Assembly (NCBI GenBank): GCA_009699205.1
Contig: WLOP01000010.1
Span: 1-54,371, forward strand
Length of the DNA: 54,371 nt
From: Actinomycetota bacterium
GTDB lineage: Bacteria > Actinomycetota > Actinomycetes > Nanopelagicales > Nanopelagicaceae
Direction: 5' to 3'
The first letter of the stretch is position 1. Each line of letters opens with the position of its first letter. The translations under genes were made by a program, and so were the position numbers. This document shows, one piece after another, positions 38,180 to 44,056 of the stretch. The notes below the pieces were generated by a model, which saw only the letters and a list, made by a program, of their open reading frames with translations, did no database searches and was not told the origin of the DNA.

Positions 38180-39378
38180 TAGTGATGCCCTTCTAAGTTT
38201 GCGGATGCATCATCGCCTTCATGCAAAATTGCTTTCAATCGTGACTCTGGTATCAAACCTTCGCGTTTAAAGAGCATCATGAAAATCAACACTCCCCCGA
38301 ATAGAACGAAGTTATAAGAAGGGAAATTGATGGATGTACCAAAGGAGGTATTAACGAGATCACCCAGGGCTTGTAAGCCAGTTGAGTTAACCCAGGCAAT
38401 GAGAAGCGCGCCAACCATGACCCCCCAAACGTTACCCATTCCACCAAGAACAACCATTGCTAGCAAAATAATTGAAATCGAGAAGTTGAATCGATCAGCA
38501 AAGACACCATTGACGTGCGTGGCGAATGCAACGCCACCGATACCACCCGTGAAAGCCCCCACAGAATAGGCAGCCAACTTAGTACGCATCAAAGGTACGC
38601 CCATCATGCTCGCGGCTAGTTCATCTTCGCGGATAGCTAACCAAGCGCGGCCGAGGCGCCCCGTACGCAAACGTAGTGAAATGAAAACCATCATGGCGGT
38701 GAGTAGAGCAAAAATAGTGAACTTCCAACTGAAATCGAAAGGTCCAAGAGCTTTTCCCGGTACGCCAATATTGTCTACAGGGGAAATCCCCTTGGTCCCG
38801 TTAGACATATTGAATCCAGCGATGTTTTCGCCATTAGTAAAGATTTGCGGAATGATTTCACCGAAACCTAGAGTGACAAGTGCGAGATAGTCGCTCTTAA
38901 GGCGAAGCGTTGGCGCACCAATAATCACTCCAAAAATCGCGCAGATTACGCCACCGATAAAGATAACTCCCCAGAAAGAAATGTGGATCCCGGGCAATTC
39001 TGGTTTTACCGTACTGAATAAATGGAAGTTCACTTGACGGAAAAACGCCGACATAAACCAACCGGCGCTATATCCCCCGATTGCCCAGAAAGCTACGAAT
39101 CCTAAATCAAGCAATCCGGCATATCCGACCACGATGTTGAGGCCAAGAGCGCAGATAACCCAGACCATCGCTTCATTGAGTTTTGTTGGTGGTAACCAGT
39201 TTTGGAAAACTGTTTGCACGCTGTAAGGAAGGCGGAACATGATGAATGTATAGAAGGTCCACAAAACTACTGCGGCGATAATAAAACCGATCGCCCACGT
39301 TCTTTGGCTTGCTGCAGGCTTAAGGGCCTTACTCTTTTTAGCTTTCTTCTTCAACGCTATCTTGGCCATCTCGCTCAC
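38179..39378 (-). CDS. livM: Branched-chain amino-acid-type ABC transporter permease LivM
   Basis: A 399-residue permease with about ten hydrophobic segments after a lysine-rich cytoplasmic start (ALKKKAKKSKALKP). Family blocks: GLNIVVGYAGLLDLGFVAFWAIGGYSAGW, APTLRLKSDYLALVTLGFGEI, GRLGRAWLAIREDELAASMMGV and AMVVLGGMGNVWGVMVGALLIAWV. The GTG start overlaps the livH stop (GTGA); an ATG at 39369 is an alternative. It pairs with LivH in the membrane. Confidence 0.92.
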   Translation of the reverse strand: MSEMAKIALKKKAKKSKALKPAASQRTWAIGFIIAAVVLWTFYTFIMFRLPYSVQTVFQNWLPPTKLNEAMVWVICALGLNIVVGYAGLLDLGFVAFWAIGGYSAGWFMSAFFRQVNFHLFSTVKPELPGIHISFWGVIFIGGVICAIFGVIIGAPTLRLKSDYLALVTLGFGEIIPQIFTNGENIAGFNMSNGTKGISPVDNIGVPGKALGPFDFSWKFTIFALLTAMMVFISLRLRTGRLGRAWLAIREDELAASMMGVPLMRTKLAAYSVGAFTGGIGGVAFATHVNGVFADRFNFSISIILLAMVVLGGMGNVWGVMVGALLIAWVNSTGLQALGDLVNTSFGTSINFPSYNFVLFGGVLIFMMLFKREGLIPESRLKAILHEGDDASANLEGHH

Positions 39379-40415
39379 ACCTTCTCTGTTGTGGGCTTGC
39401 CCAACAACCCTGTAGGTCTAAAAGCCATCAAAAGAATCAAGATTGAAAAGACCACGGTCTGAGACCATTGCTGTCCTAATCCAATCGGTAAGCCATCGTT
39501 GAGGCCTTGAATCAATCCAATAAGGAGAGCACCGAGAACTGCGCCTTGCAGGTTACCAATTCCGCCCATAACAGCCGAGGTAAATGCGATTAAACCAAGC
39601 TGATATCCCAAGTTATAGGAGGTAAGCCCTCGAGTTTGTTGGAAGAGTAACCCGGCTGCTCCTGCAAGCGCTCCTCCAAGTGCAAATGTAAATGAGATCG
39701 TGCGATCGACATTGATACCCATCAAACGAGCTGCATCTTGATCCTGAGCAGTTGCGCGCATTGCCTTGCCTTGACGAGTGCGAGTAACAATCCAACTCAT
39801 CAAAAGGAGAAGTGGGATTGTCACGGCAAAGGAGAAGAGCGTCGTGTAATCAATGCTTACGCCGGATATATGGAATGCACCAGCAGGCAAAACGCTATTC
39901 CAAGTCTTAGGACCGGATCCATTCCAACGTAATCCAACAAACTGCAAACAGAATGAAACTCCCACTGCGGTAATCAGCGGCGCTAACTTCGGAGCTCGCC
40001 TTAAGCGCCGGTAGGCAAATCTCTCAATCCCAACGTTTACCGTCGCACTGACCGTCATAACCACAAGTAGGCAAAGAAAAAAGATTCCCCACGCTGCAGG
40101 ACCTGACGAAGTTTTGCCAAACCAGATAGAAATAAAGTTGGCGGAAAAAACTGCTCCAAGCATAAAGAGATCACCATGAGCGAAGTTAATCAACTCAATG
40201 ATTCCGTAAACAAGTGTGTATCCCAAAGCGATGAGCGCGTAAAGTATTCCGTTACTCAAACCGATAAGTGATGCTTGGAAGAATTGTGAAGGAGATTTTA
40301 TAAAATTTATAGAGAGCCAGAAAAGAACGAGTACTGAGGCAAGGGAACCTAAAGTACGCTCGAGATAACGGCGACGTAATTGTCTAGCCTGATATCCAGT
40401 GGTGAAGATACTCAC
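39375..40415 (-). CDS. livH: Branched-chain amino-acid-type ABC transporter permease LivH
   Basis: A 346-residue permease with about eight hydrophobic segments. GLSNGILYALIALGYTLVYGIIELINFAHGDLFMLGA, RTRQGKAMRATAQDQDAARLMGINVDRTISFTFALGGALAGAAG and TSAVMGGIGNLQGAVLGALLIGL are LivH-family blocks. The frame is open further upstream, but the GTG at 40415 has a strong AAAGGAG six bases before it and gives the expected N terminus. It comes after livK and an intervening terminator-like hairpin. Confidence 0.92.
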   Translation of the reverse strand: MSIFTTGYQARQLRRRYLERTLGSLASVLVLFWLSINFIKSPSQFFQASLIGLSNGILYALIALGYTLVYGIIELINFAHGDLFMLGAVFSANFISIWFGKTSSGPAAWGIFFLCLLVVMTVSATVNVGIERFAYRRLRRAPKLAPLITAVGVSFCLQFVGLRWNGSGPKTWNSVLPAGAFHISGVSIDYTTLFSFAVTIPLLLLMSWIVTRTRQGKAMRATAQDQDAARLMGINVDRTISFTFALGGALAGAAGLLFQQTRGLTSYNLGYQLGLIAFTSAVMGGIGNLQGAVLGALLIGLIQGLNDGLPIGLGQQWSQTVVFSILILLMAFRPTGLLGKPTTEKV

Positions 40416-40509
40416 GCCTGCTCCTTTATAGAAATGGACGACTCTCTCTTGCACGAATACTAAACCAGGTTATAGAAGAAAGATAGGAAAATCATTTAAA
40501 GCTACTAAG

Positions 40510-40549
40510 AAAATATCGGGGTGGGCACAGAGCCCACCCCGATATTTTT
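40510..40549. terminator. Strong hairpin terminator between livK and livH
   Basis: A perfect 17-bp stem (AAAATATCGGGGTGGGC and its complement) around a five-base loop, with A/T runs on both sides so it can act in either direction. It lies just past the livK stop and 95 bases before livH. It probably ends most livK transcripts and lets a minority continue into livHMGF. Confidence 0.9.
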
Positions 40550-40564
40550 ACTAATTTGCTAGGA

Positions 40565-41821
40565 CTACTTAATTGTCCAAGCGGTAACTGTAGTTTCTGC
40601 GCCACCCTTAACTTGCTCGATGGTGATGTCAATTGCGTTGGTGTCACCAGTTGCAGGATCAAGTGCAACAGCCTTACCAAGAACTGAATCATTTGCAGAG
40701 ATTGAGATACCAGCACCCGAGAAGATTGCCTTCTGAACGCCAGCACGTGTTCCATCAGAGCCTGCAATAGCGGCCATGATGATTTGAACTGCAGCAACGC
40801 CGTAAAGTGGATATGACCCGACTGGATCAACGCCATATTCAGCCTTGTATGCAGCTACGAATGTTGCACCAGCACCTGTTGGGTTGTTGGCAAGAAGTAG
40901 GTCAGTTGAAAGACCTGCGAAGGAGAGATAAACACCCTCTGCTTCGGCCATCTTGTTAAATTCTGGGTAACCAGTAAATCCGTCTGGTGCCATGACCTTA
41001 ACCTTGGTGTTGTCGCCAAGAACCTTGACCTTATCCTTCATCAACTGTCCACCGTTGTTGTCGAAGATACCGGCAACATAAACCATGTCAGGGCTGAGAG
41101 CCTTGATCTTGGTGAAGAGAGCTTCGTATGAAGTTTGCTTTGCATCCCAACCTTCGCCATTGGCGCCGCTGGAAAGAACTTTAAGACCAATCTTGTTGGC
41201 TTCAGTTGTAAATGCTTGTCCAACACCTTGACCGTAGGTCTGAGTATCGTTCAAAACATAAACACTCTTCACGCCAATTGATTGCGCGAATTGAGCTGCT
41301 GCAGCACCTTGGAAATCATCGGTGGTGCATACGCGGCCGTAGTTACGTACGCCTGATGGGTAGTAAACCTCTGGCTCACCTGGATTCCAGGCCTTTGTAA
41401 GTCCTGGGTTGGTGTTTGCATCAGAGATCATTGCCATTGGACCAGTTGGATCTTGGTTCAAGATTGGAACGATGATCTTTGCGCAACCTGAGTTGTATGT
41501 ACCCATAACGGCAACTTCAGCCTTGTTAGCAACGTGTGCTTGTGCATTAGCTGCGCACTGTGCATCATCCCAGCCACCCTTGGCAGCTGTTGCGTTGTCA
41601 TAAATCTTCAATTTAACTTTGAAGTCACCGGCTTTGTAGCCCTGTTGCTTCAAGTAAAGTTCAATGGCCTTATTTGTTGAATCGTTAGAGTCAAAAGATG
41701 AACCCTGCAACGGAAGATCTGTTGCAATGATGAGTTCGTTGGATGAAGAACATCCAGTCAAAGTTGTTGAAACCAACGCAGCAGCTGCGATGATTCCAAA
41801 AACGCGTGAACGTAGTTTCAT
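40565..41821 (-). CDS. livK: Branched-chain amino-acid-type substrate-binding lipoprotein
   Basis: A 418-residue periplasmic-binding-type lipoprotein. The signal peptide (MKLRSRVFGIIAAAALVSTTLTGC) ends in a lipobox LTGC with lipidated Cys24. The mature protein starts ELIIATDLPLQGS and has the two-lobe type I fold of Leu/Ile/Val-binding proteins (VAVMGTYNSGCAKIIVPILN, VYVLNDTQTYGQGVGQAF, MVYVAGIFDNNGGQLMKDKV). The exact ligand (branched-chain amino acids, other amino acids or amides) is not decided by sequence. AGGAAGG lies eight bases before the ATG. First gene of the liv operon, with a recognisable promoter at 41866-41895. Confidence 0.92.
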   Translation of the reverse strand: MKLRSRVFGIIAAAALVSTTLTGCSSSNELIIATDLPLQGSSFDSNDSTNKAIELYLKQQGYKAGDFKVKLKIYDNATAAKGGWDDAQCAANAQAHVANKAEVAVMGTYNSGCAKIIVPILNQDPTGPMAMISDANTNPGLTKAWNPGEPEVYYPSGVRNYGRVCTTDDFQGAAAAQFAQSIGVKSVYVLNDTQTYGQGVGQAFTTEANKIGLKVLSSGANGEGWDAKQTSYEALFTKIKALSPDMVYVAGIFDNNGGQLMKDKVKVLGDNTKVKVMAPDGFTGYPEFNKMAEAEGVYLSFAGLSTDLLLANNPTGAGATFVAAYKAEYGVDPVGSYPLYGVAAVQIIMAAIAGSDGTRAGVQKAIFSGAGISISANDSVLGKAVALDPATGDTNAIDITIEQVKGGAETTVTAWTIK

Positions 41822-41943: not shown

Positions 41944-42531
41944 TCAGCGCTCGGGAACCGCCGAAGGCGAGATAACGGCAAGGGCTACCTCTTTCATACT
42001 TAAACGCCTATCCATAGCTGCCTTTTGAATCCAGGAAAAGGCTTGAGGTTCAGTAAGGTTCAAAGCCCCCATGAGAATGCCCTTCGCGCGATCGATCAGT
42101 TTGCGCGTTTCAAGTCGTTCATGAAGATCGGCAACTTCGGCGCTTAGGGAAAGCATTTGTTTGTGACGACTCATCGCGATCTCAATCGCGGGAACCAATT
42201 CGGCTATCGAAAAAGGTTTAACCACATAGGCCATAACTCCGGCATCTCGAGCGCGTTCAACCAATTCTTTCTGACTAAATGCGGTGAGCATTAATACTGG
42301 CGCGATGGGGATGATTTGTTCTGCTGCAGAAATCCCATCCAGCACCGGCATCTTCACATCCAAAATTGCTAAATCGGGTAAGAATTCTTTGGCTAGCGCA
42401 ATCGCTTCTTCTCCATTAGTAGCTTGAGCAACTACTTCGTAACCGGCTTCGGTGAGCATTTCCACCAAATCCATGCGGATGAGCGTTTCATCCTCGGCCA
42501 CAAGAATGCGCGGTGCTGAGTTAGTTGTCAT
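41944..42531 (-). CDS. pdtaR: PdtaR-type response regulator (REC + ANTAR RNA-binding domain)
   Basis: A 195-residue two-domain protein. The receiver domain (about 8-120) has Asp14, phosphorylation site Asp58 (AILDVKMP), Thr83 and Lys105. A coiled linker (ALSAEVADLHERLETRKLIDRAKG) leads into an ANTAR domain (about 131-190; KGILMGALNLTEPQAFSWIQKAAMDRRLSMKEVA). ANTAR proteins bind paired hexaloop RNA hairpins and prevent termination when phosphorylated; the partner kinase is not here. The ATG is the only sensible start, has no Shine-Dalgarno, and lies one base after the mature 3' end of the tRNA gene. So tRNA end-processing would yield a nearly leaderless mRNA. Confidence 0.94.
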   Translation of the reverse strand: MTTNSAPRILVAEDETLIRMDLVEMLTEAGYEVVAQATNGEEAIALAKEFLPDLAILDVKMPVLDGISAAEQIIPIAPVLMLTAFSQKELVERARDAGVMAYVVKPFSIAELVPAIEIAMSRHKQMLSLSAEVADLHERLETRKLIDRAKGILMGALNLTEPQAFSWIQKAAMDRRLSMKEVALAVISPSAVPER

Positions 42532-42532
42532 G

Positions 42533-42605
42533 TGCCCCGAGTCGGATTCGAACCGACACTATGCAGTGTTTGAGACTGCCCTCTCTACCGTTGGAGTACC
42601 GAGGC
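42533..42605 (-). tRNA. tRNA with anticodon CAA (Leu-like) but a short variable loop
   Basis: A 73-base cloverleaf: acceptor GCCTCGG/TCGGGGC (with G-U pairs), a three-pair D stem (CTC/GAG), anticodon stem GCAGT/ACTGC with loop CTCAAAC, a five-base variable loop ATAGT, and T arm GTCGG-TTCGAAT-CCGAC. Base 73 is A; CCA is not encoded. Anticodon CAA (42572-42570) would read UUG. Real leucine tRNAs are class II with a long variable arm, which is missing, so charging with leucine is uncertain. A weak D arm (C10-G25, mismatch at 13-22, G rather than A at 21) is also odd. It lies 11 bases after the pyk stop and one base before pdtaR. Confidence 0.8.
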
Positions 42606-42613
42606 GTGGGCTC

Positions 42614-42619
42614 AGTCTA
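42614..42619 (-). promoter_or_regulatory. Possible -10 element for the tRNA (overlaps pyk stop)
   Basis: TAGACT, whose first three bases are the pyk stop codon, lies eight bases before the first base of the tRNA. It fits a start with almost no 5' leader. No good -35 is seen. Confidence 0.4.
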
Positions 42620-44056
42620 GCGATAAGCAGGTGCTGCGCCACCAACAGCATCTCCGATGCAATGAACGCGCATCGCATTGGTAGATCCTGGGATTCCTGG
42701 AGGTGAACCTGCCACGATCATGATGAGCTCACCAATAGTGGCTCGTCCAGAATTAATAAGTATGGAATCCACCTGCTTGACCATTTCATCCGTGTGATTA
42801 ACGGTAGGAGCCAACATCGATTCAATCCCCCACGAGAGCGCCATACGGTTATATGTGCCTACTTCAGGAGTGAGTGCCAAAATTGGAATTGGTGAACGCA
42901 AGCGCGCCATGCGGCGTGCAGAATCTCCGCTTTGAGTAAATGCCACTAAGAATTTGGCGCCAACAGTTTGCCCTACATCAACTGCTGCACGCGTAATCGC
43001 GCCACCTTTGGTGCGAGGAGAATGCTGTAGCGGCTGAATGCGATGTAATCCCCCCTCTTCGGTCCGTTCGATAATTCTCGCCATAGTTTGAACGGCTTCA
43101 ATAGGGAAGCTGCCCACGCTGGTTTCGCCCGAGAGCATGAGCGCATCGGCGCCATCCAAAACTGCATTAGCGCAATCTGTCGCTTCTGCACGGGTGGGAC
43201 GTGAATTTAAGATCATCGAATCCAGCATTTGCGTTGCAACGATTACCGGCTTGGCTGCTTCGCGCGCTAATTCTACGCAATGTTTTTGAACAAGTGGGAC
43301 ATCTTCAATGGGTAACTCCACGCCAAGATCCCCACGAGCAACCATAATTCCGTCAAAGGCGTCAACAATTCCTTGCAGATTAGCAACTGCCTGTGGCTTT
43401 TCAATTTTTGCAATCACTGGGATGCGGATTCCGACCTCGTCCATAATGCGATGAACATCTTTAATGTCATCTGCGCTTCGTACGAAAGATAGCGCTATGA
43501 AATCTGCGCCGGCATTGAGGCCCCAACGCAAATCTTCGATATCTTTTTCAGACATCGCTGGAACCGAGACAGCAACTCCGGGTAAATTGATACCTTTATT
43601 GTTGCTGACGAAACCTGGCTCGATTACTTTGGTAACAACATCATTTCCTTTAACTTCTACAACTTCAACTGTAACTTTTCCATCATCAATCAAAATACGG
43701 TCACCACTCTTGCAGTCACCTGGCAAACCCTTATAAGTAGTTCCTACGCGCTCACGAGTACCTTGAATGTCATCTGTGGTGATCGTGAAAATGTCACCGC
43801 GTGCAAGCTCGTGTGGACCATCAGCAAAGCGAGCCAATCTGATCTTTGGACCTTGCAAATCTACGAGGATCGCAACTGGCACCCCAGCTGCCTTTGCAGC
43901 TTCGCGAACGCGGTCGAATCGAATTTGGTGCTCATCATAACTTCCGTGAGAAAGGTTGAGGCGAGCCATGTTCATGCCTGCATCTATAAGCTCGCGAACC
44001 TTCTCGGGAGACTCAACCGCTGGACCCATCGTGCAAACAATTTTCGCTCTACGCAT
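42617..44056 (-). CDS. pyk: Pyruvate kinase
   Basis: A 479-residue pyruvate kinase making ATP and pyruvate from phosphoenolpyruvate. Sequence blocks: KIVCTMGPAVESPEKVRELIDAGMNMARLNLSHG, ILVDLQGPKIRLARF, ADFIALSFVRSADDI, the catalytic-lysine region VIAKIEKPQAV, metal site GIMVARGDLGVELP, and the K+/effector region TQMLDSMILNSRPTRAEATDCANAVLDGADALMLSGETSVGSFPIEAV. No extra C-terminal PEP-utiliser domain. TAAGGT lies six bases before the ATG and overlaps the gltD stop codon, so the message is probably leaderless. Confidence 0.96.
   Translation of the reverse strand: MRRAKIVCTMGPAVESPEKVRELIDAGMNMARLNLSHGSYDEHQIRFDRVREAAKAAGVPVAILVDLQGPKIRLARFADGPHELARGDIFTITTDDIQGTRERVGTTYKGLPGDCKSGDRILIDDGKVTVEVVEVKGNDVVTKVIEPGFVSNNKGINLPGVAVSVPAMSEKDIEDLRWGLNAGADFIALSFVRSADDIKDVHRIMDEVGIRIPVIAKIEKPQAVANLQGIVDAFDGIMVARGDLGVELPIEDVPLVQKHCVELAREAAKPVIVATQMLDSMILNSRPTRAEATDCANAVLDGADALMLSGETSVGSFPIEAVQTMARIIERTEEGGLHRIQPLQHSPRTKGGAITRAAVDVGQTVGAKFLVAFTQSGDSARRMARLRSPIPILALTPEVGTYNRMALSWGIESMLAPTVNHTDEMVKQVDSILINSGRATIGELIMIVAGSPPGIPGSTNAMRVHCIGDAVGGAAPAYR

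Follow-up and report, generated by a model that had tools for sequence, protein, structure and literature searches.

A class I tRNA-Leu(CAA) beside pdtaR and two leucine tRNA architectures in Actinomycetota

The tRNA gene between pyk and pdtaR

The window, that is, the whole 54,371-nt stretch of Nanopelagicaceae DNA that was analysed, carries a tRNA gene on its minus strand between pyk and a pdtaR-like gene. ARAGORN calls tRNA-Leu(CAA) at 42605-42532 (-), and Rfam RF00005 matches over the full length, 42605-42533 (52.1 bits, E 2.2e-8). Nucleotides 1-73 occupy 42533..42605, with G1 at 42605 and A73 at 42533; these are exactly the limits given in an earlier note made from the sequence alone, which had also anticipated that a scanner would call the gene tRNA-Leu(CAA). 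Upstream, on the same strand, lies the pyruvate kinase ORF pyk (42617..44056; PF00224, PF02887), whose stop codon is 11 nt from the tRNA. On the other side, 1 nt separates the tRNA from the ATG (42531-42529) of the pdtaR-like gene (41944..42531, -), an ORF of 195 amino acids encoding a response regulator with a C-terminal ANTAR domain (PF00072, PF03861). Further downstream on that strand, past pdtaR, 39375-41821 encodes a binding protein resembling LivK and a permease for branched-chain amino acids resembling LivH, so that in the window a leucine tRNA and an ANTAR regulator lie close to genes that are likely to serve leucine uptake.

A table of tRNA positions bore out the class I shape, the CAA anticodon and the five-base variable loop. 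The acceptor stem has 7 bp, including two G.U pairs. The D arm (10-25; 42581..42596, -) is of the leucine type, with three pairs (C10-G25, U11-A24 and C12-G23), a C13.A22 mismatch and the loop AACGGUAG, which contains A14, A15, G18, G19, A20a and G21. A 5-bp anticodon stem closes the loop CUCAAAC, in which the anticodon CAA (34-36; 42570..42572, -) reads UUG. The variable loop, AUAGU (44-48; 42558..42562, -), ends in U48, the Levitt partner, and at 5 nt is well short of the 10 nt or more that define a class II arm. A 5-bp T stem and the discriminator A73 complete the molecule. The cloverleaf is the minimum-energy fold, with a single-sequence folding z-score of -1.25, which is unremarkable and frequent among tRNAs.

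Class I relatives, class switching and origin

The same 74-nt gene, identical or near-identical, was found in at least 36 genomes of the window's family, Nanopelagicaceae, whose members have small genomes of 1.2-1.5 Mb, many of them closed, and homologues of full length (73-77 nt) occur across the class. A model of class I tRNA-Leu built from 28 homologues (R1) gave 91.9 bits to the window tRNA and 93.8 to the tRNA-Leu(UAA) of the same genome, with the next tRNA of that genome, a non-leucine one, at 59.6. Across the 28 distinct class I sequences, 99.5% of pair cells hold standard pairs and there are 109 two-sided changes, against 29 in shuffles; not one of 500 shuffles reached either value. 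All helices covary or are invariant, as is A73. The 15-48 pair is A15-U48 in 27 of the 28 and G15-C48 in the remaining one, and so covaries once. Some class I CAA tRNAs of Streptomyces-type genomes (loci L116, L120 and L127) have G15-C48, which leucine identity in E. coli would not predict.

The earlier note had proposed looking for conservation across Actinomycetota, and a phylum-wide search showed that many more families have the class I form; the best 24 candidates per genome were scored, so that matches count and misses do not show absence. Records with the class I form include Mycobacterium, Nocardioides, Pimelobacter, Lentzea, Streptomyces, Actinomadura and Nocardiopsis, and further lineages are Acidimicrobiales, Thermoleophilaceae, Nitriliruptoraceae and Euzebyaceae. 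The pattern search of contigs reports only class I tRNA-Leu with a 6-nt variable loop, and names lineages rather than counts.

The leucine tRNA complement of ten further genomes was established with R1 together with a class II leucine model (R2). Both the CAA and the UAA tRNA are class I in G073, G087 and G021. In G042 and G264 the CAA tRNA is class I and the UAA tRNA class II, that of G042 being similar to Streptomyces bldA; G228 has the reverse arrangement. The CAA and UAG tRNAs are class I in G247, G040 combines a class II CAA with a class I UAG tRNA, and all five leucine tRNAs of G119 are class II. Within none of the ten genomes was an anticodon found in both classes; in the larger ones the best 150 candidates were scored, and there the search may have overlooked a class II duplicate.

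A tree of 148 leucine tRNAs, 114 of them class I, was built from 63 positions, excluding the anticodon and variable region. The two classes fall into a single clade that excludes the other tRNAs of the window's genome (support 0.943), and 99 of the 114 class I sequences form one clade within the analysis (support 0.979). This topology argues that the class I form is a leucine lineage that shed its arm, probably on one or a few occasions, and later came to serve several anticodons. Such a lineage would have replaced class II genes anticodon by anticodon, mostly among the readers of UUG and UUA and sometimes of CUA.

Instead of arising in place by loss of the arm, the form may have entered Actinomycetota with phages or mobile tRNA arrays, an origin that we consider possible but distinctly less likely. 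Class I tRNA-Leu genes are present in the Streptomyces phages Alone3 and LuckySocke and in Synechococcus phage S-CREM1, and in tRNA-rich contigs of Gemmataceae and Butyrivibrio; since phages carry the form, part of its spread may be horizontal. However, phages may equally have acquired these genes from their hosts, the cellular gene remains at the pdtaR locus, and the single clade of 99 class I sequences, in a tree of only 63 sites, speaks for descent within one lineage. A plasmid origin was dropped, as the plasmid search returned no match.

Class I tRNA-Leu genes with the anticodons UAG, AAG, CAG and GAG also occur, several of them in phages or tRNA-rich contigs (G247:C1:2880360; G040:C27:13445; Alone3, L266 710-784; Butyrivibrio, L207; Gemmataceae, L192 and L195). 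In the window's genome, the 3' end of the tRNA-Leu(UAA) gene has a near-copy, 29 nt long, at a distance of 1.5 kb on the downstream side (L152; G000:C11:122442-124002). A 464-amino-acid ORF separates the two and no integrase was seen there; the near-copy is perhaps an att-like duplication.

Leucine identity and the decoding of UUG

The genome from which the window comes (1.42 Mb, 96% complete, 43 tRNA genes) has five leucine tRNAs, one per anticodon: CAA and UAA are class I, and UAG, GAG and CAG class II. A search for a class II tRNA-Leu(CAA) elsewhere, as suggested in the earlier note, found no other CAA tRNA of either class among the 43 genes, and a second one could lie in the missing part of the genome. 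The same note had reasoned that the lack of any other tRNA for UUG, together with clear charging by LeuRS, would mark the gene as an ordinary decoder. The first of these is largely what we find, except that tRNA-Leu(UAA) can read UUG by wobble; the CAA tRNA therefore need not be essential.

When all tRNAs of the genome were tabulated, the combination of A15, U48, G21, an unpaired 13-22 and A73 was confined to the five leucine tRNAs, and the class I UAA tRNA shares its D loop, AAUGGCAG, with the class II UAG and CAG tRNAs. The mismatch at 13-22 and G21, which had been read as weaknesses of the D arm, are therefore real but constitute a leucine signature. In E. coli, leucine identity resides in A73, A15-U48, G18G19 and A20a, while the anticodon and the arm are not crucial; armless E. 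coli tRNA-Leu variants remain leucylated, and human mitochondrial tRNA-Leu(UUR), which has no long arm, is likewise leucylated (PMC9976931). Every one of these E. coli determinants is present in the window tRNA, which also keeps U8-A14. E. coli LeuRS can do without the long arm, and the premise of a LeuRS that depends on it is therefore wrong for bacteria.

The genome encodes one intact LeuRS of the bacterial type (829 amino acids, editing domain present), which most likely charges the window tRNA. A bacterial LeuRS would read A73 and the corner formed by the D and T loops (A15-U48, G18G19 and A20a), all of which are kept, and the short-loop tRNA would work because this recognition has no need of the arm. 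Our preferred reading, to which we assign a probability of roughly 0.9, is that the window tRNA is an ordinary UUG decoder charged with leucine by the single LeuRS, with a short loop in place of the arm.

The principal alternative to ordinary decoding is that the tRNA is poorly charged or serves outside translation, as the earlier note suggested, perhaps in a regulatory or cofactor role, and is retained beside pdtaR for that reason. Its placement between pyk and pdtaR is as described there, and the neighbour is indeed fixed across the phylum: among 98 genomes from 23 families, 96 have the class I tRNA-Leu(CAA) next to pdtaR, and sequence conservation within the window's family is very strong. 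However, in two other families (G040 and G119) a class II tRNA-Leu(CAA) occupies this site, likewise divergent from pdtaR, making the neighbourhood independent of shape; class I UAA genes were never seen beside pdtaR in the locus survey, and the UAA isoacceptor switched class without any link to pdtaR. As class I and class II CAA genes alternate at the pdtaR site, the place belongs to the CAA gene and not to its shape, which rules out inferring a special role of the short form from its place. The window tRNA is, moreover, the sole CAA tRNA found in the genome. Poor charging, charging with another amino acid and extra-translational use all lack support in view of the leucine-type D arm, the retained determinants and the alignment of UUG with leucine, and we regard poor charging or an extra-translational role as improbable.

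Charging with another amino acid, which would make UUG ambiguous or reassigned, is more improbable still. Beyond the class I shape, what could be cited for it is that the nearest tRNA of the genome outside the leucine family by core identity is Thr(CGT), at 57%. Against it stand the leucine-specific D arm, the Levitt pair and A73, and the clustering of the window tRNA with leucine tRNAs in the tree. Of the 328 leucine codons in six window genes, 63 (19%) are UUG. In gltB, a test of one protein and 60 cells against three comparison genomes with a class II CAA tRNA, leucine stands opposite UUG in 41 of the 60 cells (68%), no worse than UUA (67%) and inside the range of the CUN codons (58-77%). 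Nothing in these codon comparisons suggests reassignment, and recoding of UUG was rejected on the alignment of this one protein. The missing arm and 3-bp D stem might suggest a pseudogene or a class II tRNA in decay, but this reading is excluded for practical purposes by helices that covary or are invariant across relatives, by conservation of the gene in 36 or more family genomes and by the lack of a replacement gene in the genome.

Junctions of tRNAs with start codons

In most families the tRNA is divergent from pdtaR, whereas in the window's family it is reversed and stands directly ahead of pdtaR. The sole base between A73 and the start codon is an encoded C74 (42532, -), and this C-ATG junction is found in 34 of 36 family genomes, the exceptions being one genome with a later ATG and one with divergent order. 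The pdtaR coding sequence, unlike the junction, becomes variable soon after the ATG in family genomes. A C follows the discriminator in each of the genome's 43 tRNA genes, although the full CCA is present in a minority only; the C is therefore part of the tRNA, and no further base precedes the ATG.

Two other tRNAs of this genome have the same arrangement, with only C74 between tRNA and start codon. tRNA-Pro(GGG) abuts a CDP-alcohol phosphatidyltransferase gene (L282 1576), as it does at all 10 of 10 family loci, one of which has GTG as the start codon. tRNA-Ala(UGC) abuts a cyclophilin gene (L312 1583; 12 of 14 family loci). Together with the Leu(CAA) junction (window 42529-42533, -), they show the hallmark of tRNA punctuation, a tRNA that abuts a start codon.

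A weak candidate -10 element, TAGACT (42614..42619, -), lies 14 nt upstream of nucleotide 1 and overlaps the pyk stop codon, and most of 34 genomes have a TANNNT motif that starts 14-16 nt before the tRNA. A sigma-70 scan, uninformative here, found no full promoter at the locus, and no terminator was found by scan. From the gene order, we infer a dicistronic tRNA-pdtaR transcript. In the simplest mechanism, RNase Z or a similar enzyme would cut at the tRNA 3' end, at A73 or C74, and excision of the tRNA would give a pdtaR mRNA whose leader is 0-1 nt long and which would be translated as a leaderless message. Leaderless translation is common in Actinomycetota. We give even odds to the wider proposal that Actinomycetota possess two interchangeable leucine tRNA architectures, switched by anticodon at fixed loci, and that in Nanopelagicaceae tRNA excision yields leaderless pdtaR, CDP-alcohol phosphatidyltransferase and cyclophilin mRNAs, a bacterial parallel to the tRNA punctuation of mitochondria.

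Leucine tRNAs are taught, and modelled in annotation programs, as long-armed, and specialists would not expect the short-armed architecture in free-living bacteria. No description of short-armed tRNA-Leu as a phylum-wide trait was found in the open-access literature, and the passages of a 2020 review of non-canonical tRNAs (PMC7609411) that a keyword search reaches do not mention short-armed tRNA-Leu from Actinomycetota. Class switching in this phylum and the A73-C-ATG junction of the family both look little described, if at all. Short-armed versions, present also in Mycobacterium and Streptomyces, interchange with long-armed ones at the same locus, and this class switching offers a natural experiment on the demands that LeuRS and the ribosome make of the arm. 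The short-armed form explains likely isotype mismatches in annotation and is relevant to tRNA engineering, while the tRNA-start codon fusions make leaderless translation via tRNA excision directly testable in free-living bacteria.

Several known tRNAs invite comparison. One known class I tRNA that bears CAA is a hardly expressed copy of tRNA-Met whose anticodon has mutated; the window tRNA, by contrast, has a leucine body and deep conservation. The tRNA-Leu(TAG) of a Mycobacterium phocaicum/mucogenicum tRNA cluster is likewise a short-loop tRNA-Leu in an actinobacterium, but an extra copy beside a normal class II isoacceptor (PMC6582537), whereas the window gene is the sole chromosomal gene. 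With the E. coli type of bacterial class II tRNA-Leu, the window tRNA shares A73, U8-A14, A15-U48, G18G19, A20a and G21, together with the 3-bp D stem, the unpaired 13-22 and a decoding role. The class I form departs from that type in lacking the long variable arm, in having A9 rather than G9 and C12 and C13 in the D stem, and in a variable loop that is usually NNAGU. In human mitochondria, tRNA-Leu(UUR) lies directly ahead of ND1, an instance of tRNA punctuation. Metazoan mitochondrial tRNA-Leu(UUR) also has in common with the window tRNA the class I shape, the reading of UUR codons, charging by LeuRS without an arm (here predicted) and identity through A73 and A14 (PMC9976931). The mitochondrial tRNA is fragile, however, whereas the window tRNA is a regular bacterial cloverleaf in a cell that keeps class II tRNAs for the CUN codons.
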